A DNA stretch of 64,000 bases from Pomacea canaliculata (lineage: Eukaryota; Mollusca; Gastropoda; Architaenioglossa; Ampullariidae): positions 14,296,252-14,360,251 of the forward strand of contig NC_037595.1 in assembly GCF_003073045.1 (NCBI RefSeq), read 5' to 3'. Under the pieces are notes generated by a model. The model did not search any database, was not told where the DNA came from, and saw nothing but the letters and a program-made list of their open reading frames with translations. Both the position numbers and the translations under genes were made by a program. Below are positions 482-64,000 of the stretch, one piece after another (position 1 is the stretch's first letter; each line of letters starts with the position of its first letter).

Positions 482-1053
482 GAGAATGAGCGATGTGTCG
501 AGGAGAATATCCGTTGGGCTGATGCCTACATCTTCTCTACTCCGTCACAGACCGCTGCAGCCTCAATGAGTGTCTCCGCCTCAAGTTCCTCATCAACTCC
601 TACGGGAAGCGCAACCGCAAGCTGAGTGTGGCGCTGCCGGAGACGGCGCTGTCCAGCAACCCGGTGGCGCTGGTGGGCAACCAGAACGACCGCAGCCTCG
701 ACCGCATGATCCCCATGACCGAGGGGTGGCGTGCTGGGGCGCAGCTGGGCTGTGTGGCCTTCTACGAGATCTCCGTGCGCGAGTGCTGCGACTCGGTGCA
801 CACCATCTTCGAGGACCTGTACACGTGCTACAAGCGACCCAAGAAGTTTCGCGCCGTCTACCCGCGCCGCGCCGTCAGCGTCTGCAGCTTCGACACCATC
901 AACAGCAGCGACAACGGAGGTGCCAGCGGCACGAACGACGACAGCGAGGCGGCGGCGGAGGACGACGGCGAGAGGATCAAGGTGGGCGAAGCGGTGACCT
1001 CGGTGAACCCTGACACCCGGTGCCAAGAGGAGGGGAGCGTTACAGTCCATTAG
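482..1053 (+). CDS. RERG/RASL-like small GTPase, 3' terminal exon (one frame break)
   Basis: This is the C-terminal half of a Ras-superfamily GTPase of the RERG/RASL group. The exon opens after the acceptor at 480-481 with ENERCVEENIRWADAYIF, then YSVTDRCSLNECLRLKFL, which is the region after switch II. The guanine-specificity motif G4 is VALVGNQND (an NQND variant of NKxD) and the G5 region is FYEISVRE. A basic, Ser/Asp-rich tail ends in VTVH at the TAG (1051-1053). There is no CaaX box, as in RERG, so prenylation is not expected. The two halves lie in different frames: the switch falls at about 534-540, between the codons for IF and YSV, and a single missing base explains it. Both sides are well conserved, so a base-call error is as likely as a real lesion. 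The P-loop and switch I exons are outside the window. The family is secure; the exact subfamily is an inference. Confidence 0.85.
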
Positions 1054-39092: not shown

Positions 39093-40538
39093 TAGTAAGG
39101 GACTCCTAGATTAACCGAAACATGTTTTTATATCCCCCATGTTGTTTACAACACTCAGTGTCACACTGTGCCTCGTCCAAAGAATTATCTTTTCTTGAAA
39201 TTTAGCTTCAGCTGCATCTCACTGGTCTGTGACGTCTCTGAGATTTTTTTTTTTTTGAAACACACTATTCCAAGTGATGGTCTCAATACATGACAAAAAT
39301 AATCTTGACCTTTGCTCTGTTCTGCTCATTTTTTGCTATCTAGGGTATGGTTAATGGGGTGGGTCCGCTGTCTTCCATGAATATGTTGTTTCTTGCCACC
39401 TGAGAGGCTGCTGCAGCTTTATTCACAAAACATGGTCACGTGGGAGGGGATGAGATGGGATGAGAGTACAATGAGGAGACGATTACCATGGTGACCATGG
39501 TGCTGAACGTTGAACACATAACCCTAAAGTAAAACAACAAATGTCGGCAAAACTTCATTGATGGTATTTTACCGCTCCAAGTCATGTTTAGTTCCGATGC
39601 AATTAGGTTAAGAATTTCTCGGCCATACATTTCCCTAAATTATTCAGCTCTTCTTTATTCTTGGACCGTTCATCACGACTGTAATTGACACCCGCTCGCA
39701 CCGTTGTCAGGAGGTGGGCGCTGCTTGTTATTTATTTGTTTTCCACAACCTGTCTCCTCCATTTTTCTAGCAAGCATACCTTCGCGACCTGGTATGAGTA
39801 AGAAGTCCTCGTTACTCTGAGCTGTATTCTATTTGCGATACAAAATATTTGACCAGAAAATGTTGCTCTGTGTGTGGCCAACCACCGCAACCTTGTAAGG
39901 ACATGACCATCCATACTCTGCCAACGAATAGATCAGGGAAATAAGAGGAGAAGAGATGGAGAGAATGGTAGAAATATGCCGGCCCCACACATTTCAAGTT
40001 GTAGTTCGGAACCCACCTCAGTTCAGAGGTCACGTCGGTGTCACGTGTCTGCGGATGTCTTTACGTGACATCAGGATGAAGAGCAGGAGCGGGGTGGAGG
40101 AGTCGGTAAACAAGTTTTGCTGTACGTCACCTGCAAGGCAGCTTATTCCTCCTCTTCTTCTCCTTCATCGTCACTTAGGCGTACAAACTTTGACCCTACT
40201 CGGGTCTTATGATGAGCGAACTTAAAAATGATCTTCAGTTTGCTGACACATTTAAGGGGAGAACATCGGTGTTTACGAGGAAACTTAAATCCACCAAGTA
40301 CAAAATTTCTGGATTATCTTTAAACCCAGTAAATACTGACGGACTTACCAGCACGACCCCGATTTGTCGCATTTATGCCGGGCGTGTTTTATTTTCTGTC
40401 AAACTATAATTAGAACAACCCCAATGTATGTGTGTGTGATTTGAGTGAGTGTTTGAGTCTGTGACTCACTCCCCTAACCACTTCCTGTCGGTTTATCTTT
40501 CTATCCGTTCTCTCCATGTTCCAGACACTGAAGCAAAG
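39093..40538. other. 5' flank of the orphan receptor gene
   Basis: No coding signal. An acceptor-like TCCATGTTCCAG ends at about 40522, just before the start codon, which suggests an upstream 5' UTR exon somewhere here. Confidence 0.4.
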
Positions 40539-41668
40539 ATGACGGTTCCCAAGATCAAGGACTTCGTTGACAGCAACGCCAAAGAGTTTCTTTCTGTGTT
40601 TGAAGTCATGGCTCACTTCTCGGACGTGTCGGAAGGCGTTCTGGACGTCGGATCCAGCAGCAACGACACCATCAACAGCACGACCACGCCTTTGATGACG
40701 ACGCTAGCGACGAACCCCGCCTGTCGCAAAAATGAAGCTTTTATGCAGGCTCTACCCTGGGTGCGCATCACCTTCGGGGTGCTGATGGTGCTGGAGAACA
40801 CGCTCAGCCTGTGGGCGTTGTGGCACGTGCGACGTCTGCAGCGAGCCTTGCAGCGCTTCATGAGCTCCTTGTCGGTCGGGGAACTGCTGACCGGAATCTG
40901 GTGTTGCTATGGTTATGGCGCTGAGGTCATCACGGGGTCAGCGGAAGTGACATTCGAATGCCGCATGCGCTTCATCGGGATGACGTATTTGAACTTTGCC
41001 TCCATCCTCTCCATCGCCGCCATGTGCCTGGACCGAGCTCTGGCCTTGCAGTGTCCCCTCCGCTACGTGGAGCTGGTCACGCCACCCCGGGTGCGCCTGG
41101 TGCTTGCGGTGGTGTGGCTGCTGCCGCTGGCAGTGGTGCTGGCCGCGTATGTGGACGTGGAGGGTTCCTCCCTGGACTGCGACTTCGTGCACATCGCATC
41201 TCCCCGCACCTACGTGGTGCTGACGGTTGTTGCGCTTCTTCTTCATCGCTGTCATCATCTCCTCGCAGCTCTTCCTCTTCCGCGCGGCGCACTGCCACAT
41301 CACCAAGATCTTCCCCACGCTCATCAACTCGCACGTGTCCACTCGCTACTTGCGCATGAACGTGCGCGCGGCGGTGACGACAGCGGTAGTGGTCATCCCC
41401 TTCTTGCTGCTGTACTCGCCCGTGGTGGGGGTGCAGGCGTCTGGCCGCCATCCCCGGCGATGAGGAGTGCATGAGTCAGGTGCTGGCCGCCACCTGGCTC
41501 TTCGCCTCCGCCCACGGCCTCTTCACACCTGTCATCTTCTGCTGGCGCTTCAAAGAGATCCGCGCCAACCTTCTCCGCCTCTTCTGCCGCTGCCGGCAGC
41601 CGGGACCGGAAGTCAACATCTACAACGTGCGCTCGAGCGTGTCGGCAGCGACTGGGAACCTGCTGTAG
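40539..41668 (+). CDS. Orphan class A-like GPCR 1 (single coding exon, two frame breaks)
   Basis: This is a rhodopsin-like seven-transmembrane receptor with no assignable ligand. The start ATG at 40539 begins MTVPKIKDFVDSNAK; the N-terminus has sequons NDT and NST. Segments in order: TM1 VRITFGVLMVLENTLSLWAL, TM2 SSLSVGELLTGIWCCYGYG, TM3 starting at the Cys of FECRMRF and ending LDRALALQCPLRY (a DRA form of DRY), TM4 LVLAVVWLLPLAVVLAAYV, ECL2 Cys in SLDCDF, TM5 RFFFIAVIISSQLFLF, TM6 VTTAVVVIPFLLLYSPVVG, TM7 WLFASAHGLFTPVIF in place of NPxxY. Two frame switches interrupt it: an extra T at 41227/41228 before RFFFIAV, and an extra base within 41426-41441 (G run or the following T) between TM6 and the AAIPGDEECM loop. 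All TMs remain well conserved across the breaks, which favours base-call error. The stop is TAG at 41666-41668. Confidence 0.88.
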
Positions 41669-44650: not shown

Positions 44651-45832
44651 CTATGTGTCAAAAGAAACGACTCTAGCGGATCTTTGGATGACGTCATTGT
44701 CTTCGCCAACGGTCTCCTTCTCTGCCGAATTGTCCAAGGTGGGTCTGTGTCCAGGAGCACTCAGAGAAGTTCTTGTTGCTGCTCGTGCTATGGAATTAGA
44801 CATGTAAGCGTTGGACATCCGCTTGTTGCCGGCGAGCTGAAGACTCGCCCTCAGTTTATCCCTGCGAACGGGGTCAACCACTACTTCTCGAAGCAACGTG
44901 ACTCGTCTATATCTGTCGTCCACCTCTTCATGAAACACATTGTTGAACATCATGCACTTGAAGCAGATCATGGAATAGAAGTTTTTCTGTATTTCATGGT
45001 GACGGACAAAACAGATCGGGAACAGAACGACTCCGCTTAGCGTCCAGGTAATCTCAGACGTTTCCTCAAAATGATACCAGAAGGCCGTGACATGGTTGCT
45101 CAAGATCTTGTTCATGTTAGCCATGTTCCTCGGTATTGCAAAGACCAAGAAGAAGATCGAGTATATCAGGAGGGTATAAGAGGCAGCAGAAAAATGTTTA
45201 TCTTGGAGCTCATAGTCGATGCAGTCTGGACTGACAGGACAAGACCCGCGGAAGTGACGCCACAAGCGGACGGAGCACAGAAAGATCATCATCAGGAACG
45301 CCATGCCCTGTATATACCCTCTTGCCTCTGCGGAATAGACAACGATTATCTCGCAATTGTGTCTTGCGATTTGTGTCGTGCCGAAGAAAAAGATGAGGAA
45401 GACGGTGATACCCGAAAATAGTTCATTGACTAGCGTGAGAATGAGAAAATATTTGGTGGAGACGAAGACGTACATGAAAGGGCGGCCTGGGAGCACCATC
45501 AAGATACTGCACGATAGCATCAACAGCACGTTCCACTGAGCCATGACCTTGAAGAACACTATGCTGATGACGCGGAAATGACAAAGATAGCCACTCTGTT
45601 GATGGCTGATGAGGCTGCTGAAGGCGTCATGGATGCGGAACAAACCAATCAGGATAAAGATGGCGGCGTGGAAGATGCAGATGTGGCACAAGGGCATGAC
45701 GATCTGGCTGGGCTGCCACATGGTCACCACCACGCATATGTTGAGCATCAGCTGCAAGATGCCTAGCAGCAAGTGTGTGATGTCCACCATCATGAGCTGA
45801 GCATCGGTTGGGACATAATCAGAGTTGTTCAT
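44651..45832 (-). CDS. Orphan seven-transmembrane receptor 2 (intact, 393 aa)
   Basis: This single-exon 393-residue frame starts MNNSDYVPTDAQLMMVDI and is intact. Likely TM segments by residue are TM1 16-38, TM2 43-66, TM3 84-113, TM4 122-150, TM5 172-191, TM6 216-234 and TM7 260-276, followed by a long basic, Ser/Thr-rich cytoplasmic tail of about 115 residues. Cys84 at the top of TM3 and Cys160 in the second outer loop could form the usual class A disulphide. The DRY position reads SILMVLPGRPF, TM6 has FLVFAIPRN and TM7 has LFPICFV, so the standard activation motifs are degenerate. N2 lies in a sequon (NNS). It looks like a lineage-restricted molluscan receptor; no ligand class can be inferred. 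It converges on GPCR 1 but shares no clear sequence with it. A chemosensory or peptide role is possible. Confidence 0.87.
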   Translation of the reverse strand: MNNSDYVPTDAQLMMVDITHLLLGILQLMLNICVVVTMWQPSQIVMPLCHICIFHAAIFILIGLFRIHDAFSSLISHQQSGYLCHFRVISIVFFKVMAQWNVLLMLSCSILMVLPGRPFMYVFVSTKYFLILTLVNELFSGITVFLIFFFGTTQIARHNCEIIVVYSAEARGYIQGMAFLMMIFLCSVRLWRHFRGSCPVSPDCIDYELQDKHFSAASYTLLIYSIFFLVFAIPRNMANMNKILSNHVTAFWYHFEETSEITWTLSGVVLFPICFVRHHEIQKNFYSMICFKCMMFNNVFHEEVDDRYRRVTLLREVVVDPVRRDKLRASLQLAGNKRMSNAYMSNSIARAATRTSLSAPGHRPTLDNSAEKETVGEDNDVIQRSARVVSFDT

Positions 45833-53840: not shown

Positions 53841-55013
53841 TAGCACACGTTGAGATGTCAAAGGTCAGCACAGAGAACAATAAAGGCCGAGAATCACAGA
53901 CATGAATTCCACTCAGTTCCCACAATGAACAAGTGGACTGGAGATGAAGATGGAGCAAGCTTCTCACGACTTTACAGTGAAAAGACAAACTAAATAAACA
54001 CACTGAACCAGCTGAGCACAAAGAGTGCTTCAGGCGATTTCTCCGCGTTCACTATGAGAACGAGGCCAAAGTACAAAGTCACTCTCGGTTTGACTATGAA
54101 CATGGAGACGACGCGAAATCTCGTGTTGACGGAGGTAAAGAAGCTAAAACTTAAGTGGAGATCGAGATCGAGGACCTTTGCCAAAAAAAAAAAAAAAACT
54201 AAGAAAATTTATTGCAAGTCTATTGTTGACTTTCAGAATTGTTTCGTGGTTACGGATGTTCAGCTGTTAAATGGTTTCCAAACCCTGACAACCTACAACA
54301 TCGCGAGAGGCTGAGTTGGTCTCGACAACCAGGAGCAGTCCAGAGACAGACATCTCCATAGTATGACCGTTTCATTGACCTTCTCTTGCTTCCCCAAACA
54401 CAATCTCGTATTCCACACTATGATCCCCAATCCTCTCTTCATCAGCTCACCATTTGATTCACACAGAGAGAAGCACTCAGTATGTAAACTCATAGTAAGC
54501 GCAGGGACAGCGGGATGGGAGAAAGCATTTGTCAACAGGATGTCTCCACCATGGATCTGTATCAGTTGTTTTTATGCTCAGAGAGAGAGGAAGGAATGGG
54601 TCAGTAGCCAAGCATGTAATATTTGTCTCACAGGTATGTGTTGTGACCGTGAAATGAGCGTTGGGCGACCCTGACCCTGCGCCCTCCGAGTGAAATGTGT
54701 ATCACGAGAGTCTGGGCGTGCCCTGTGACCTATGCCCTGTGCCCTGTGTGCAAACTGTACATCCGTGCTGCGACTGTTATTTATTGCCCGGCTGCTAACC
54801 TCCTTCCTCGGCTTTGCGAGGTAATATTTTCACACTCACATTCCACCTGTTAATGCATTCGCTGAAAGTTAGCAACACCTGTGCCAAGCTGCTGTCCTCC
54901 TGATCTTCTAAAACAAACCTGAACACAAGCGGCTCTATACCCTAGGGTCTAGCCCTATCATTAACCTGCTCTTCGTTACACCATGCGGGACTGTCGACAT
55001 GTACGTGACATTT
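53841..55013. other. Intergenic, no feature seen
   Basis: 3' flank of the large minus-strand gene. No coding or RNA signal recognised. Confidence 0.45.
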
Positions 55014-55052
55014 TATTTTATTTTTTTATTTTATTTTATTTTTTTTTTTTTT
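55014..55052 (-). other. Poly(A) signal cluster of the MARCKS-like gene
   Basis: On the minus strand an A-rich tract with several overlapping AATAAA hexamers follows the TAA stop (55075-55077) within about 60 bases. This suggests the long exon is terminal, although the stop overlaps a GTGAGT donor-like sequence. Confidence 0.5.
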
Positions 55053-55074
55053 GCCGAAGACGGCCTAAAGTCTG

Positions 55075-58000
55075 TTACTCACTGTTAGCCTCCAGACGTT
55101 CTGAAGCCTTGGTGTCGCCAAGCATGTCGGGAAGAAGACAGTACCCATGCAGCGAAACCCCATGTGGACTGGAGCTGGCGGCACTGGCGCCTTCGTCTGG
55201 CAAAGGTGAACCACTCACACCGCTGCACGTGCTGCCGACGTCACCGTTGCCTGGCAGCTCTCGCGTTTCTTCAGCCGTCCCACATGCTTGCCCACACGCC
55301 TGCCCACAGCACTCTGCCCCCGATGCCTGCCCACAGCTCTCTTGGATCGTCCCTGAGTCGTGAGCAGCATTGGTGTCCGAAGCCAGACAGGTAAGGGGCA
55401 CCAATACCGTGTCCCCGTCATCCCTGTGATAGGTAGTGTCCCCCGACTGATGACTGTAAGAAAGCGTTTGAGAGAAAGTGCAATCAGTTGTAACGGATAC
55501 ACCATCCTTCTCCGTTTCTTTCTCTCCTTTCTCTGTATCTGATGTCTGCTCCACGATGTCACGGTCCTTACACGCCCTCGCTGATTCTGTCACCTCTACA
55601 GTGACCCCGGCGATTGATGAACCTGTGACGTCATCGCTATCAGAAGCGCCATGTGACCTCCCCTTCTCGTCTGCAGCGTCATCACTGTCGGAAGAGCCAT
55701 CTGAGCTGTTCTCAACATCAACAGTCTTCTTATCCCTCAAGTGCTGAAATGATTCCACATCCTGCGCGCGCATCTTACTGCCGGTGACTTGTGCACCCGC
55801 CTCATCTGCAGGAATAACGTGAGAGTCATCTGCATCATTCCACGGGTGACTATCTGTGGGGACACAGAGCTCAGGCCCAGGGACCGCCCCTCAACGACGT
55901 ACACTTCACGATAAGTGTCTCCCCCCTCAGCAGTGTCCTCAGCACCTTCAATGAGGTCGAGGTCACCCTCTTGTCCTGAGGTTGGTCGCCACTCGCCGTC
56001 GACCTCCTGTGATGACGTCACAACCACCTGTAGGGTGGACACGAAGAGTTCCCCAGAGAGCAAGTCCCCAGCATCACTACCGACAATGTCGTCACCGTCA
56101 CTTGTAGTCGACCGCCTTCTCTCGCTTCCACTGCCAGACTTTTGCTCACCAGACCTTTCTTCATCCTCGGAGGTCGCGAGCTGCTCTAGCGGCATCGTTG
56201 GGAGGGTTTCGCGTGTCTCCTCCTGTCCATCCACAGCTTCACAAGCCGGGGACAGGGAGGCTGGATGATACTGGATGCTGGCGCCGCACGACGATCTGAT
56301 GCTGAGCGAGGAGTTGTCGCGGTTGTCTGCACTGCTGACCGGCTCGCCAGGTCGTCGGGGGCGCTGTCTTCGTGAAGGTGGGGTGGTTGCCAGGGTGTCC
56401 ACGCTGCGCGGTTTAGTCAGGTTCACGCGCTTCACCTCGGACATGCGCACTTCCCCTGTGATCCTCCTCAATATGGCCGTGCGAAGACGGGGACCTAACT
56501 CAATCTTCTTCAGAGGACTTCCGCTGGCTTCGCCAGTTTCCGGAGACCGCACAGCTTCCTTGGTGCGCGGAGAAAGCCGGATGTATGGTGTCCAGTCAGT
56601 CTCTCCCCACGAGGCGGATAGCGACTCAGAAACGTCTGACAGCGAGTCGTTAGGAATGTCCCTCACCTGATCCACCTTCGGAGTTTCTAGGGTGTCATCA
56701 TCCGGGTATGGACTTTCGGGTAGATCTGGAGGACGACCGTCGGGTTTCTCATCTTTCCGTTTGGTTTGCAGAGACTCATCCACCTTGATGACAGAACTTT
56801 CGATAGAGGAGATGATGTCATCACCATGAAAACCTAATGACACGACCTTGTCACCTTCCTGCACTGCGCTGTTTGGACCAATGACAACCTCTGTCTGTCT
56901 CGTGACCTCCCCCTGTGGTGACCCCAGCTCGGCCACAATGGCGGGCGACACGTGTACGGCCTCCAACTTCACTGTCTGTGCCACTGTCAACGGTTCCTCT
57001 ATAGGTTCTGTCGGTTCCTCCTTAAAATCAGAAGGTGGAGCGTGTGAAGACTTCACTGTCTGTGCCACAGTGAACGTTTCCTGGGCAACCTCATTGGGTT
57101 TACTGAAAATGGCGGATGATCGAAAGCGGGTGGATTCTTCTGCTGCTGTTAACGGTACAATCAGCTCATCGTCCACTTCTGTCTTTGGTTCTTCTATGAT
57201 TTTGACCGTCACCTCTATTTCTGTCAGTTTACCCTTCTCTTTAGTTTTCTTTTCTTTGGCCTCTCTTTTCTTTTCTTCTTTCAGTCTTTTCTTTTCGTCC
57301 TTAGCCGCCTTAGCTCTGGCTTTCTCTTCCTTCTTCTTCAAGGCCTTCATTTCCTTTTCTCGCGCTCTGAGTTGAGCAGGAGACAGAGGTGTAGGAGTTG
57401 TTTCAGTTGTCTCACCCACGTGCTCTTTCATTTTCTGTGGTCCGATTTCTGGATGCGAACCGTGAAGTCCAACTGTTGCCTGCGGCAGGATGTTCTCTTG
57501 GACCTCCTGCAACTCTGTTGTTTGGCCTGGGGTGTCCACCTGGACATGAAATTTCATCGGTGATACCTCTGTTCGTAGTGAAGTATCTACAAGTTCTTTC
57601 TGTGAGGTTGTTGCTGTGTGTGGTACGATGTCTGCCTCTGACTTGTGCACTTCTCTTTTTTCTTCTAGAACGTCTAACCTCTGGGGCAGGTGAGTTTTCT
57701 CTACAGTTATCACAGTCACTTGCTTCACCTTTTGTTTGGCTTCACAGGTGACATCACACAACATCGTTTTCGCTTCTTCTTGATTGGTTTCACCAGCGAC
57801 AGAGGGCAAAGAAATCTTCTGTTCTTCTTTAGTTTCCATAGCAATGTAACCAGAAGGCAAAGAAATCTGCTTTTCTTGTTTAGTTTCCATAGCAATGTAA
57901 CCAGAAGGCAAAGAAATCTGCTTTTCTTGTTTAGTTTCTGTAGTAATAGAAGGCAAGGCAACCCTCGGTCCTTCCTGCTTAGCTTCACAAGCAACCAAAG

Positions 58001-61000
58001 GCAAGGAAATTCTTTGCTCTTCTTTTTCAGTTTCTATAGCAACAAAAGGTAAGGAAATCTTCCTCTCTTCTTCTTTAGTTTCCATAGCAACAAAAGGTAA
58101 GCTCACTTTCGGTTCCTCTTGTTTATGTTCACCACCGGCAAAAGGCAACGAAATTTTCTCATCTTCTTTAGTTTCCATAGTAATAAAAGGCAAGGTAACT
58201 CTCGGTCCTTCCTGTTTGGGTTCATCAACAACGAAAGGCAACGAAATTTTCTGCTTTTCATCTTTAGTTTCCGTAGCAACCAAAGAGAATGAAATCTGCT
58301 GCTCGTCTTCTTTAGTGTCCATATCAATAAAAGGCAAAGTTATCATTGGTTCTTCTTGTCGAGGTTCACGGGCAACCGAAGGCAAGGAAATCTTCTGGTG
58401 TCCTTTTTCAGTTTCCTTAGCAACAAAAGACAAAGGAACCTTCTGCTCTTCTGCTTTAGTTTCCATAGCAATGTAACCAGAAGGCAAAGAAATCTTCTGC
58501 TTTTCACCTTTAGTATCTATTGTAATAAATGGCAAGGTAATCCTCGGTCCTTCCTGTTTGGGTTCATCAACAACCAAAGGCAAGGAAACTTTATGCTCTT
58601 CTTTTTCAGTTTCCATAGCAACAGAAGGCAAGGTAACCATCGGTTCTTCTTTCTGATGGTCATCAACGACAAAAGGCAAGGCAAATGTTTCTCTAGTTTC
58701 GACAGCGATGAAAGGTAAGGTACCCATTGCTCCCGCTTTTTCAATTTCACCGGTGATAGAAGGCAAGGCAGCCTCTAGTTCCTCCACTTTAGTTTCACCG
58801 GCGATAAAAGGCAAAGTAAATGTCGGCCCTTGTTGCTTCTTACTTTCACCAGAGACCAAAAGAAAATCTGTATTCTGGTCTTTTTTCGTGTCGATGGAGA
58901 CTAAAGGCAAGGTTATTATCTCCGAGTCTTGTTTAACTTCGTCAGCGATGAAAGGCAAGAACATGTTCTGCTCTTCTTTAGTTTCATCTGCGATGAAATG
59001 CGCTGTTATCTGCTGCTCTTCTTCTTTACTCTGGGCAGCGATAAAAGGCAGTGTCACCTGTTCTTTAATTTCGCCGGCGATGAAATGCGAGGAGATCTGC
59101 TCGTCTTTCATTTTGCCAGCTTTAGCTTCACCAGTGATGACAGGTAAGGTAACATTCTCCGGCACTTGCTGGGTGTCACTGTAAGACCAGGTGAGCTGTT
59201 CCTCGTCTTGTTTAGTTTCTACGCACCACGGAGAGGTGATAAACCCTCCTCTCTCTTGCCAGTCCTCGCCGTTTTCGTCTGTTTCGAAACCAACGACGAC
59301 TTTCTCAATGTCTTCGTGATGCGATTTCCAGACACTGGCCTGCAAGCTTTGTTCATTGCCGTCCTTCGTGATTTATTTCTTTCATAGGAAATCCAAGAAT
59401 TCCTTCGTACTTCAAACTCGGAGTTTTTCCCACATTCTCCTGGCTGACTTCAGTTTCTACAAGCAGTCCAGGAGCCGCAAGTCCCTGGCACTCAACGATC
59501 TCCACAGCACATGGCAGCTCTTGACCTCCTGATAGGTCAGCAAAGGTCTTATGTTCTTCATCTGTTGGTATCCTCACAGTCCGGACATCTGTCGGTGTTG
59601 GATGATCTCTGTCGGTGCCAGGCAGTGCTGGCGTGTCACGTGACAAGCTCGTCACAGACAGTTCTCCACCCGTGACACCCGTGGTCTCACCAGAAGCTTC
59701 TGTGTGTTGGCGGGTGTTGCTGTACTCACGGTCAGTCCACTGTCGGTGAGCTGACGGGTACTCACCACCACAACACTGTCTGACTTGCGTTTCTCGGCCT
59801 TTGCCTTCACAGTCCTTTCTTTCTTCTTTGGTGTTTTGCTCTTCTGGTGGTTGTCTTTCTTTTTCTTCACCTTGACATCCGCTTCGTGCTTACTTTTCTC
59901 CTTCTCATCTGAAAATAAGGACTTTCAAGTACAGAGGAGAGAATGTATAATAACTGCAGTATTGCTATTCTCCCTTCCTCTCCCCTCTCGCTCTTTTTCG
60001 CTTTCGCTCGCCATCACGGTCACTCATAAACATGTACACAGAGAGGAACATCTACACAGATAAACATGTACACAAAGAGGAACATCTACACAGATAAACA
60101 TGTACACAAAGAGGAACATCTACACAGATAAACATGTACACAAAGAGGAACATCTACACAGATAAACATGTACACAGAGAGGAAACGTGTCTCGTGTCCA
60201 TGTTTACACTAGGCAGTCACGTGTCAGCGCGCGCTGGTGTGACAAGCTGTGTAATCAGTCACCTGAGTGTCTGTGATGACATTGTAATCGAGAAATGCTT
60301 ACAAACCTATCAGTAGAAACCAATAAATATTTACCGTTTGAAGACAGCGAAACTGTGTCAACTGTCTGGTCATGTTCTGTTTCTTCTGTTATATCATCTA
60401 CACCTTGCTTGAAAATACCTGCAACAGGTATACAATAACATAACATATTACATACATTGTCATGGCGACACCTGTATGCTACCTGTGTAGCAGATGACAA
60501 ACAGTTAATTTGTAGACCAGTTCGGGAAAATGTCTTAATGGAGCACACATGTGAAGTAGGCAGGTGAGGCCACACAGGTAATGTCACAGAAGCTGGTGTC
60601 AAGTCTGATGCTGATGAATGCCGGAAGTTACAGCTGCGTGCAAGCAAGTGTATTTTTGTAAAAGTATTTTGTCTTCTTCCTAACATTTTATGAATTGAAA
60701 TTACTTTCTGATGGTGTAAATGTTTCGATGTTTTACTGCAAACACCTGTCTACCTGTCAAATGTACATCGTGTACCCACCATGAGAACGTCGGGTTTTGA
60801 TGGTTCCATCCTCCTCGTCGCTGTCTGGTGCGCGGAGTGCTGGCGGGCATGAAATGGGCCGCACGCCGTTCGCTTCTTTGTTCAACTTCCGGCGGCGCTT
60901 GCCTGAGGCGTTCTTCTTCAGGCTGAAGCCGAAACGCTTTTTCTTTTCTTTCTTTTTATCTGGAAATATTTGATATATTTTGGGATATTATTTATTGTTT

Positions 61001-61710
61001 AAAAAAAATCATCATACTTCTGCGCTTGCAAAGGTGTAAATAAAATATGTAGTGCACGCAGAACGTGTGTGTTCTTGTAACATGGTCATGCTTATGTCCT
61101 GTTTGTACAGCAGGACCACTCACGTGCTCTTGTTCTCATGACATCATCACTCACACCTTGTGTTCTCGTGACCTGACCACTCACACCTCGTGACCTCAGT
61201 GACATGCCGCGCCTACCTGGTGACGAGGTGCTGCTGTCAGGTGTCGGAAGAGCAGCAGCATCTGCCCCGTTGCCTTCATCGTCTTTATGGACGGTAGCCA
61301 CCAGCTTCACAGATCCTTTGTTATCTCTTCTGATGTCGCCGTTCTCCGCATCGTACACTGGCAGCTCACTGTCCCTCTGTCCGGGAGTGTACGACCCCCT
61401 TCTGGAAACACCTACACACACAAGAACACACACACTGTAACTCTCAGAATGCTTCGTGACATGTTACAACACTACAATCAGCAGCCACCTCCAGCCATCA
61501 AACTCATGTTTTACCCAAACATCCTCATCATTGTCTAGGATGAGCGAGTGAATCGACAACGAACTGCGGCCTGAGTTGGGCGGCAACTAGTTTTTATTTC
61601 TACTTCATCCGAGAGCGACAAAACAGTTTTAAGCCACAAATATTTGTTACATTTTCTGAAACAGATTGAAACATTAAATTAGAATAAAAAATATGTTTAC
61701 CTTGACCCAT
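55075..61710 (-). CDS. Myristoylated MARCKS-like protein with a 17-aa repeat array (five exons)
   Basis: Minus-strand exons are 61710-61701, 61411-61217, 60959-60780, 60418-60335 and 59908-55075, all joined in phase 1 at GT-AG sites, about 1,770 residues. Exon 1 encodes only MGQG; splicing gives MGQGVSRR, an ideal N-myristoylation signal (G2, S6, R7). Exon 3 carries DKKKEKKKRFGFSLKKNASG, which closely resembles the MARCKS effector domain (KKKKKRFSFKKSF): a Lys block with Phe residues and a Ser, able in MARCKS to bind acidic lipid, actin and calmodulin. The last exon holds about 27 copies of a 17-residue repeat (57766-59153), a Lys/Glu-rich coil (57235-57350), a basic segment LRTAILRRITGEVRMSEVKR, and an acidic Ser-rich C-terminus. 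Three one-base frame breaks lie in the last exon: within 59700-59745, at 59371-59374 and in the C run 55887-55890. It is probably a membrane-anchored scaffold like MARCKS, Drosophila Akap200 or AKAP12; the repeat array is not known to me. Confidence 0.8.
57766..59153 (-). repeat. Coding tandem repeat, about 27 units of 51 bp (17 aa)
   Basis: The unit approximates KISLPFVAMETKEEEQ, with fixed LPF/LPS, a small hydrophobic pair, an acidic residue plus T/P-K, and a charged linker. Some units are 19 residues through an SGYIAMETK form. Two adjacent units at about 57838-57945 are almost identical at the DNA level, a sign of recent unit duplication. A higher-order alternation of ETK and EPKQEGP linkers suggests growth in blocks of two or more units. 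Confidence 0.9.
60028..60183. repeat. 34-bp minisatellite, about 4.6 copies
   Basis: Units of AAACATGTACACAAAGAGGA plus ACATCTACACAGAT start at 60028, 60062, 60096 and 60130, with a partial fifth copy. It lies inside the last intron of the MARCKS-like gene. Confidence 0.95.
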
Positions 61711-62301
61711 GGTCTTTACCCTCAATTGGTGATGAGGCTAAGTCATAAAATCTGCAACAAAAAATATGTTTGATAAATCTCAGACATTTCGCCTGTTTCT
61801 TGTGTGGGAGATCACTACCTACTACATTAACATTCGTGACTCATTTCTGTCTTCTTTCCTTTGACTATAGTTTGGGTTTGGCGCCCACAGCACAAGGTAG
61901 CTTTACTCCAAGCTCTGAAGCCAGAACACCTACCCACGAGGTAGTGGAATACCTTGTGAAACCCACTTGTGCATCCACTGTAACAAACCTTAGCTCACTG
62001 GAATACACAGGCTGACGAGAGGGGGGGACAGGGTTGGTGTACCCGGGCCCGCGGCTGTCAAGGGGGCCGGCCTTGGTCAGTGGATTTTTTTCTTCTTCTC
62101 TTCTCCTTTCTTTTTCTTTAAGAAAGGTCTAAGGACAGAACACCCAAGCATTACACATGCAGAAGTTGAGTTTGAGTGTAGATTATTGAGATTCGAATTG
62201 AACATACATTATATACTGGAAAATAATTACGATTACAAGTACAAGGGCCCGGAGAGGTCTGTCCCGTGGCCCGGGCTGGCTCTCGGCGGCCCTGGGAATA
62301 C
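61711..62301. other. 5' flank of the MARCKS-like gene
   Basis: Contains two unusual GC-rich stretches (about 62020-62075 and 62245-62300) rich in GGGCCCGG-type runs in otherwise AT-rich DNA. No gene is recognised. A 5' UTR exon of the MARCKS-like gene may lie here or further right. Confidence 0.4.
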
Positions 62302-62581
62302 ACACTGACACACTGTGACACCCATTCACTGACACATTGTGACACCCATTCACTGACACACTGTGACACCCATTGACTGACACACTGACACCCATTAACA
62401 GACACACTGTGACACCCATTGACTGACACATTGTGACACCCATTAACAGACACACCGTGACACCCATTGACTGACACACTGTGACACCCATTGACTGACA
62501 CACTGTGACACCCATTAACAGACACACTGTGACACCAATTGACTGACACATTGTGACACCCATTCACAGACACACTGTCAC
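62302..62581. repeat. 24-bp minisatellite, about 11-12 copies
   Basis: Tandem units of GACACACTGTGACACCCATT plus four variable bases (CACT, GACT or AACA). Because 24 is a multiple of three, more than one minus-strand frame stays open across the array; these are not called as genes. Confidence 0.95.
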
Positions 62582-64000
62582 CTCCTGTCACTCAGGCATG
62601 TTGCAACGATGTGAATGGAGCAATCGTCAAATATTTGGTAGAATATATTCTTAGTGGTGTTCATGGTTGTGTGCTAAGAGATGTATTGTGTCTGTAACGA
62701 GTACAATGACTACGTCATACGTTGTAATAATAGTGTTACAATGCACAGCGCATGGTGTTACTATAAGTAGTACATACTCATGACAAGAACTCTCACACGC
62801 GAATGTCTACGTTAGGTAGTCACAATAGTCACATCGACTGTCAATGAAGACATTATAACCAAATGTAGGTTACAAGCCACAACGGCCATTGTCAGTAAGA
62901 CACTCATCGAGTAGGTTATTGGGTTACGAAAGAGTCGTCAATAAAACATTCACACTTTGGCTCAGTGTAGGTTACTACCCACGAAGTAGTGTCACTAGAA
63001 CATCTATATAGATATATCATGTTACAAATGTCGACTACAACCCATCTTGTCACTACAACATCCACCATGTTTCCACCTGTAGGATGGAAGCTATGACGCG
63101 ACTCGGCACGTGTCACACTCCATCGTGTGCTTCACCTTTGTGTGATACTGTGGTGTGAACGGCAGGCAGGTAGGTATAGGCTCTCTTACCTCCGTGTCGC
63201 TGATGTCCTGGGCGCACCCCGCCACCTCATCATACCCGACCACCCGTGCGGCTCACGTACCCAAAGACATTTTCTCTACAGCCATCAGGAACAGCCGCAG
63301 GTGACGTGACACGCTGCTGTGACATCACACGACAAGGACGCGAACCTTTCTCACCGCTGGCTGCCACCCAGGGTAGTCGGCGCCTCTACTTACTGCTAAC
63401 TGCTGCCACTTTTTATTTTTTTCACTTCCCCTTGGTTGATCTCATTGCTTTCTCCAGTCATCTACTACAAGCAGCTCCTCCCTACCCCTCAAGCCACCTG
63501 CCATCTGACCCACATATCTACTACCTTCCCACACTACCACACCTACCCGCCTCCTCCTGAAAGTACGCCGGGTACTTGCCCCACATGGACTCCAAGACTT
63601 GCACTAGCAGAGTACCAGCAGCTGACACGTGTATAACACTACAAACATCTGGCAGCTCTCAAGGCAATCAAAACCTTTCTTCACTGGCCACATCCTGGCT
63701 AGAGTCTGGCTTCAGGACACAGTCAATGTTATCCACCGTTTGACCACGTGACTGTCGCAGGAGACCAATGGTTTTGAGGCAAACGTTCAGAACACTGGAA
63801 CTTGGAAAGTCCGCCCTCCCTGAATCCAGCTGTGGAAACTGTTGGAACAGATAAAGTCTTCCCAGTCATCCGCCTTTTTTTTCCGAGCACTGACTGACGC
63901 CGGTACCCGAAGCCCGTGTGTACCAGCTGACGGTGCCTCGTCCTCGGCAAACCCTTTGTTCGCTCTCACTGTGAAGTTTGAATGAGTCAGCCAAGCTTAT
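62582..64000. other. Intergenic right end, no gene supported
   Basis: No secure gene. A donor-like GAG|GTAAGAG on the minus strand at 63189/63190 follows a short open stretch, but no acceptor or family signal supports an exon. Confidence 0.4.

Follow-up and report, generated by a model that had tools for sequence, protein, structure and literature searches.

AKAP12, known also as gravin or SSeCKS, has a myristoylated start, basic regions like those of MARCKS and one very large last exon, and in these respects it is similar to the snail gene analysed here; on the other hand, we know of no counterpart in AKAP12 to the long array of 16-residue repeats that the snail gene carries. The Drosophila Akap200 gene, which has a MARCKS-like splice form, gives rise both to a PKA-binding form and to a form that lacks the PKA-binding exon 5 (PMC5785023); the RII-binding helix pattern, however, is not found in the four segments of the snail protein that were scanned for it. 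The membrane switch mechanism of MARCKS, as presented in PMC5964646, would fit the snail protein. With MARCKS and MARCKSL1 this protein shares a myristoylation signal at Gly-2 and a highly basic tract that contains phenylalanines and a serine. It differs from them in having no Pfam MARCKS match and no significant MH2, in an effector-like tract that is shorter and aligns with a nine-residue gap, and in being far longer, with a 29-unit array and a composition rich in E and K rather than in alanine. The titles and the opening lines of abstracts in the MARCKS literature on molluscs and gastropods describe no molluscan MARCKS gene, and none of the MARCKS passages of PMC8902148, PMC6224180 and PMC5097137 is on a molluscan MARCKS.

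The window analysed here, a stretch of 64,000 bases of the Pomacea canaliculata genome (positions 14296252-14360251; the genome searched comprises 440,159,624 bases in 24 contigs), contains a minus-strand gene at 61710..55075 that is well supported by splice signals, by a common phase 1 and by open exons (Table 1). The order of its motifs can be read directly from the exons, and exons 2, 3 and 4 and the last exon, which begins at 59908, are all entered in phase 1 with AG/GT signals, as expected from the original prediction that the four junctions share this phase. Between positions 64000 and 59930, 56 of the 405 combinations of acceptor, donor and frame are open (overlapping variants counted), and when these are ordered by splice and codon score, exon 3 comes first and exon 2 second. 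Exon 4, ranked 13th and with a low coding score, is weakly supported. The codon model behind these ranks was trained on 513 codons of the last exon of the same gene, and the score measures likeness to that exon.

Up to the first in-frame stop, the joined exons encode 241 residues with no second methionine, so a start upstream of them is needed. Six phase-1 start candidates with a donor score of at least 4.5 lie upstream of exon 2 within the window, and MG is obtained only from the one reading MGQ. Its coding part (ATGGGTCAAG followed by GT, 61710..61701, minus strand) is preceded by an in-frame TAG, and the start codon at 61710 stands in a favourable context, with A at -3 and G at +4. Under a splice matrix of metazoan frequencies, the donor at 61701 is 14th among 659 sites, and an acceptor-like site at 61751 is second among 757. 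This acceptor-like site suggests a 51-base start exon and a noncoding exon upstream of it. Hence, of the ten-base first exon that had been proposed to give MGQGVSRR, the ten coding bases and the joined reading stand, but the whole exon is probably 51 bases long (61751..61701) and mostly 5' UTR. A noncoding exon probably lies upstream, and it would perhaps end at the donor at 63190, which is second of 659 under the same matrix. Two tandem repeats were observed outside the coding exons: a 24-base unit in 11.5 copies (62304..62578), presumably in the first intron or the upstream region, and a nearly perfect 34-base unit in 4.7 copies (60026..60184), in the intron before the last exon.

Beyond the stop codon, AATAAA motifs occur from position 55040 down. 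Immediately past the stop, at 55010..55065, a short hairpin-like sequence GCCGTCTTCGGC leads into an A-rich tract that contains AATAAA several times, and this stretch could be a polyadenylation site or the tail of a retroelement. Elsewhere in the window, a 393-residue open frame at 44654..45832 (minus strand) resembles a seven-helix receptor, with a weak Srsx match (E 0.66), and positions 628..1050 (plus strand) may encode the C-terminal portion of a small GTPase of the Ras type (Pfam Ras, E 0.0035; its 17.4 bits do not reach the cut-off of 21.6).

Table 1. Features of the minus-strand gene, in the order of transcription; positions are those of the window
Feature	Coordinates	Strand	Description
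Possible upstream noncoding exon	63190..63320	-	Donor GAG/GTAAGA at 63190; 5' limit arbitrary
Start exon (probable extent)	61701..61751	-	About 41 bases of 5' UTR and ten coding bases, ATGGGTCAAG
Exon 2	61217..61411	-	GVSRRGSYTPGQ...STSSP; 195 bases, phase 1, rank 2/56
Exon 3	60780..60959	-	Basic/aromatic effector-like tract DKKKEKKKRFGFSLKKNASGKRRRKLNKE; 180 bases, phase 1, rank 1/56
Exon 4 (weakly supported)	60335..60418	-	Acidic, GIFKQGVDDITEETEHDQTVDTVSLSSN; 84 bases, phase 1, rank 13/56
Last exon	55075..59908	-	Three frame changes, near 59700-59740, 59360 and 55890; TAA at 55077..55075
Repeat array	57750..59159	-	29 units, modal length 16 residues; core LP[FS][IV]xxE[T]K

The N-terminus MGQGVSRR, whose start arises only after splicing, fits the myristoylation pattern of the PROSITE type, and an N-terminal myristoylation signal as in the MARCKS family is therefore predicted. 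Of the contiguous ATG contexts that the window contains, 1645 in all, 16 fit this pattern and two fit MGxxxS[KR], but the rarity of such starts overstates the evidence, because the start was chosen for its fit. The tract encoded by exon 3, DKKKEKKKRFGFSLKKNASGKRRRKLNKEANG, carries a net charge of +12, and its effector-like segment KKKEKKKRFGFSLKK is located in an exon of its own, in agreement with what had been predicted. Compared with the MARCKS effector peptide, the tract matches at KxKKKRF and at GFSxKKN, with nine residues of gap between them and a score of 45; of 2000 shuffled versions of the whole exon 3 one scores as high, and of 2000 shuffled versions of the basic tract alone 27 do. 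Two other basic tracts in the same protein score at chance against the effector (898 and 943 of 2000 shuffles). The pattern [KR]3+ aromatic-x-F-[ST]-x-[KR]2, which was written after the tract had been seen, occurs once in the 127,996 six-frame positions of the window, and the exon's own locus is its only genome match at E<=10 (two candidates scored). The MARCKS-homology tract of adducin was tried as a match and rejected (466 of 2000 shuffles reach the score).

Despite this local likeness, Pfam MARCKS (PF02063) gave no match at E<=10 to the 225-residue N-terminus or to exon 3 alone, whereas it detected both positive controls, namely 191 residues of human MARCKS (E 2.6e-69) and the effector with its flanks (46 residues, E 1.3e-21). 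The likeness to pieces of MH2 is at chance, with 895 and 1272 of 5000 shuffles reaching the score. A PF02063 search elsewhere in the genome found nothing, but 14 controls were equally silent, which makes it uninformative. The RII-binding helix pattern (consensus scanned without a positive control) has no match in four segments away from the frame breaks, of 225, 124, 1160 and 271 residues, and five segments of the gene that were compared with Pfam WSK and RII_binding, likewise without a positive control, gave no match at E<=10; PKA anchoring thus finds no support in the predicted protein. The protein may hence work like MARCKS while falling outside the family as Pfam recognizes it: a MARCKS-like membrane-switch action is plausible from its motifs, but the membership in MARCKS, Akap200 or AKAP12 that had been inferred for it is not supported by these searches, with neither the MH2 comparison nor the RII scan coming to its aid.

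It could be argued that the family signals have simply been eroded and that the snail gene is a true, divergent orthologue of MARCKS or of an anchoring protein of the AKAP12/Akap200 type. The same order of a myristoylation signal followed by a basic/aromatic tract, the matches of this tract to both ends of the MARCKS effector and the single giant last exon of AKAP12 would all agree with such an origin, as would the two forms of Drosophila Akap200, one of them without the PKA-binding exon 5 (PMC5785023). We nevertheless consider this descent improbable, in view of a Pfam model that is silent while its controls match, an MH2 likeness equalled by 895 of 5000 shuffles and the absence of an RII-helix pattern from the four segments. 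Another competing explanation treats the MG start and KKKRFGFSLKK as chance likeness in an ordinary disordered protein rich in lysine and glutamate, whose array would be a neutral spacer expanded by replication slippage. To this we concede a minor but appreciable share of the probability: 27 of 2000 tract shuffles attain the effector score, charge and hydropathy class six of the seven segments as disordered, and both the AlphaFold model and the frame +1 control described below for the array are compatible with it. What stands against a neutral spacer is the pattern of conservation within the array itself, where units that have diverged to a mean nucleotide identity of 0.62 to 0.68 have retained L (25 of 29 copies), P (24), I or V (28) and E or D (28), and where divergence is least at codon position 2.

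The array was delimited from 59159 to about 57750 with unit anchors set by eye; for the alignment, four anchors were moved by one residue and two residues (GY) were dropped where units carry them. It had been described as a 1.4 kb array of a 17-residue repeat, and such an array is indeed present over this span, but its modal unit is 16 residues: identity within the array peaks at lag 16 (0.263) and is elevated at lags 32 (0.235) and 48 (0.209), against an expected 0.076, while lag 17 gives 0.122. Units of 16 residues account for 13 of the 29, those of 17 residues for seven, those of 15 residues for four and other lengths for five. The core LP[FS][IV]xxExK is kept among the units, and its columns not already counted above hold F or S in 23 and K in 21 of the 29. 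Units, whose mean nucleotide identity depends on the lag within the range given, diverge from one another most at codon position 3 (0.435) and least at position 2 (0.279). The overall pN/pS is 0.67 (bootstrap 0.58-0.79), with 0.48 in the core columns versus 0.85 elsewhere, a contrast that is partly circular because the columns were picked for looking conserved. Read in frame +1 the array gives 0.71, and in frame +2 it gives 1.16; the closeness of the frame +1 value to that of the true frame makes pN/pS a weak argument when taken alone, and conservation of the repeat is better argued from the pattern over codon positions.

In its own genome the array region has no other significant match (five others, E 0.37 to 7.3, among 10 candidates scored), and the 616 residues that follow it have three other matches, with E from 0.05 to 1.1, over a lysine-rich part. 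No Pfam family reaches its cut-off in the protein, the best weak matches being Draxin for the N-terminus (E 1.2) and Dark_WHD for the array (E 0.016). PDB yielded one match at chance level (E 9.3), neither the exon 3 tract nor the array having any there, and in IMG/VR five stretches fit a pattern, none of them confirmed as a relative. The array is thus apparently novel with respect to its own genome, IMG/VR, Pfam and PDB. An AlphaFold model of 95 array residues, built on a shallow alignment of five rows that all come from this gene, has a mean pLDDT of 46.4 and a pTM of 0.12; as far as such an alignment allows, the array is predicted to be disordered, and a folded solenoid receives no support from these values. 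On the charge-hydropathy plot the array lies just on the ordered side of the line, and it is the six other segments that lie on the disordered side. Conservation of the core leans the interpretation towards docking, with a spacer as the alternative. Two known docking motifs were considered as array-wide functions and rejected: a PxIxIT-like calcineurin site has four matches in the array (shuffle mean 1.04, maximum 5 in 1000 shuffles) and fits only 4 of the 29 units, although a few calcineurin-type sites may be present, and the LC3-interacting core, with five matches, is likewise not array-wide.

The last exon contains three frame changes, which the original description does not mention. Its open frames are frame 1 down to 59655, frame 0 at 59889..59356, frame 1 at 59372..55740 and frame 0 at 55890..55078, and a sliding codon score broadly tracks this succession, although frame 2 outscores frame 1 in some windows near 59360. 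Beyond about 55500 the scores become ambiguous, with another frame often ahead of frame 0, which makes the C-terminal ~140 residues, encoded by the last ~400 bases, and the stop at 55077..55075 uncertain. Two pieces, 59727..59374 (118 codons, score 26.9 in frame 0) and 56149..55893 (85 codons, score 13.6 in frame 1), exceed the noncoding maximum of 11.5, obtained from 192 overlapping windows of some 86 codons each, the majority of which had also served to train the background. We conclude that both pieces code for protein and that the breaks amount to single bases, most likely residual indels or other errors of a long-read assembly. The P. canaliculata assembly of 440,071,717 bp, mostly in 14 large scaffolds, was made from PacBio reads corrected with Pilon (PMC6129957). 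In the same window, a rhodopsin-type GPCR at 40530..41665 (plus strand; 7tm_1, E 2e-12 for 40530..41237) appears by reading to change frame near 41236 and 41440, its two later pieces having no receptor match in Pfam, and these two apparent breaks also point to indel errors in the assembly.

A single intron spanning both upstream changes (59765 to about 59330) was rejected, since 59727..59374 codes in frame 0. The third change may reflect an intron, possibly an alternative one, at 56149..55806: its donor ranks fourth of 659 and its acceptor seventh of 757, its 344 bases belong to the length class that is required, and its phase 1 boundaries match the other junctions. All the same, the putative intron itself has a frame 1 score in the coding range (13.6, the noncoding maximum being 11.5), and no comparably good intron was found by hand in the splice-site list for the other two changes, which leaves this explanation for the third break tentative and on the unlikely side. 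Three places of frame change within one exon could also mean that the changes are real and the gene a young, decaying pseudogene, but codon bias is kept in most pieces of the last exon, the neighbouring GPCR apparently breaks frame twice as well, which points to the assembly, and the presumed source assembly is a long-read one polished with short reads (PMC6129957); we regard decay of the gene as highly improbable. On the preferred reading, that of assembly errors, an automatic annotation would probably split the protein at this locus, because of the frame breaks in the assembly.

Taken as functional, this molluscan gene would encode a long, mostly disordered protein at the inner face of the plasma membrane, with a switch of the MARCKS type and a multivalent arm, a reading to which we give an even chance. 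The biochemical steps that we infer for it would be as follows. The N-terminal glycine would be myristoylated and, together with the +12 tract of exon 3, would keep the protein bound to acidic lipids. The tract would be released when PKC phosphorylates the FGFSL serine or when Ca2+/calmodulin binds, as in the electrostatic switch of MARCKS. The 29-unit array would be a flexible region that offers many copies of LP[FS][IV]xxETK, most likely for multivalent docking of a partner and otherwise as a spacer. A more specific version, in which a membrane scaffold peculiar to molluscs joins a lipid/calmodulin switch of the MARCKS type to its private 29-copy, 16-residue docking motif, so that one phosphorylation would release or re-cluster many copies of the partner, seems to us rather doubtful. 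As judged from its sequence, the snail protein is plausibly a new arrangement of known parts. If the proposed reading is true, molluscs would have added a long multivalent repeat arm to the myristoyl-electrostatic switch known from vertebrate MARCKS, and this locus would provide a concrete gene for asking how such switches spread among animals.
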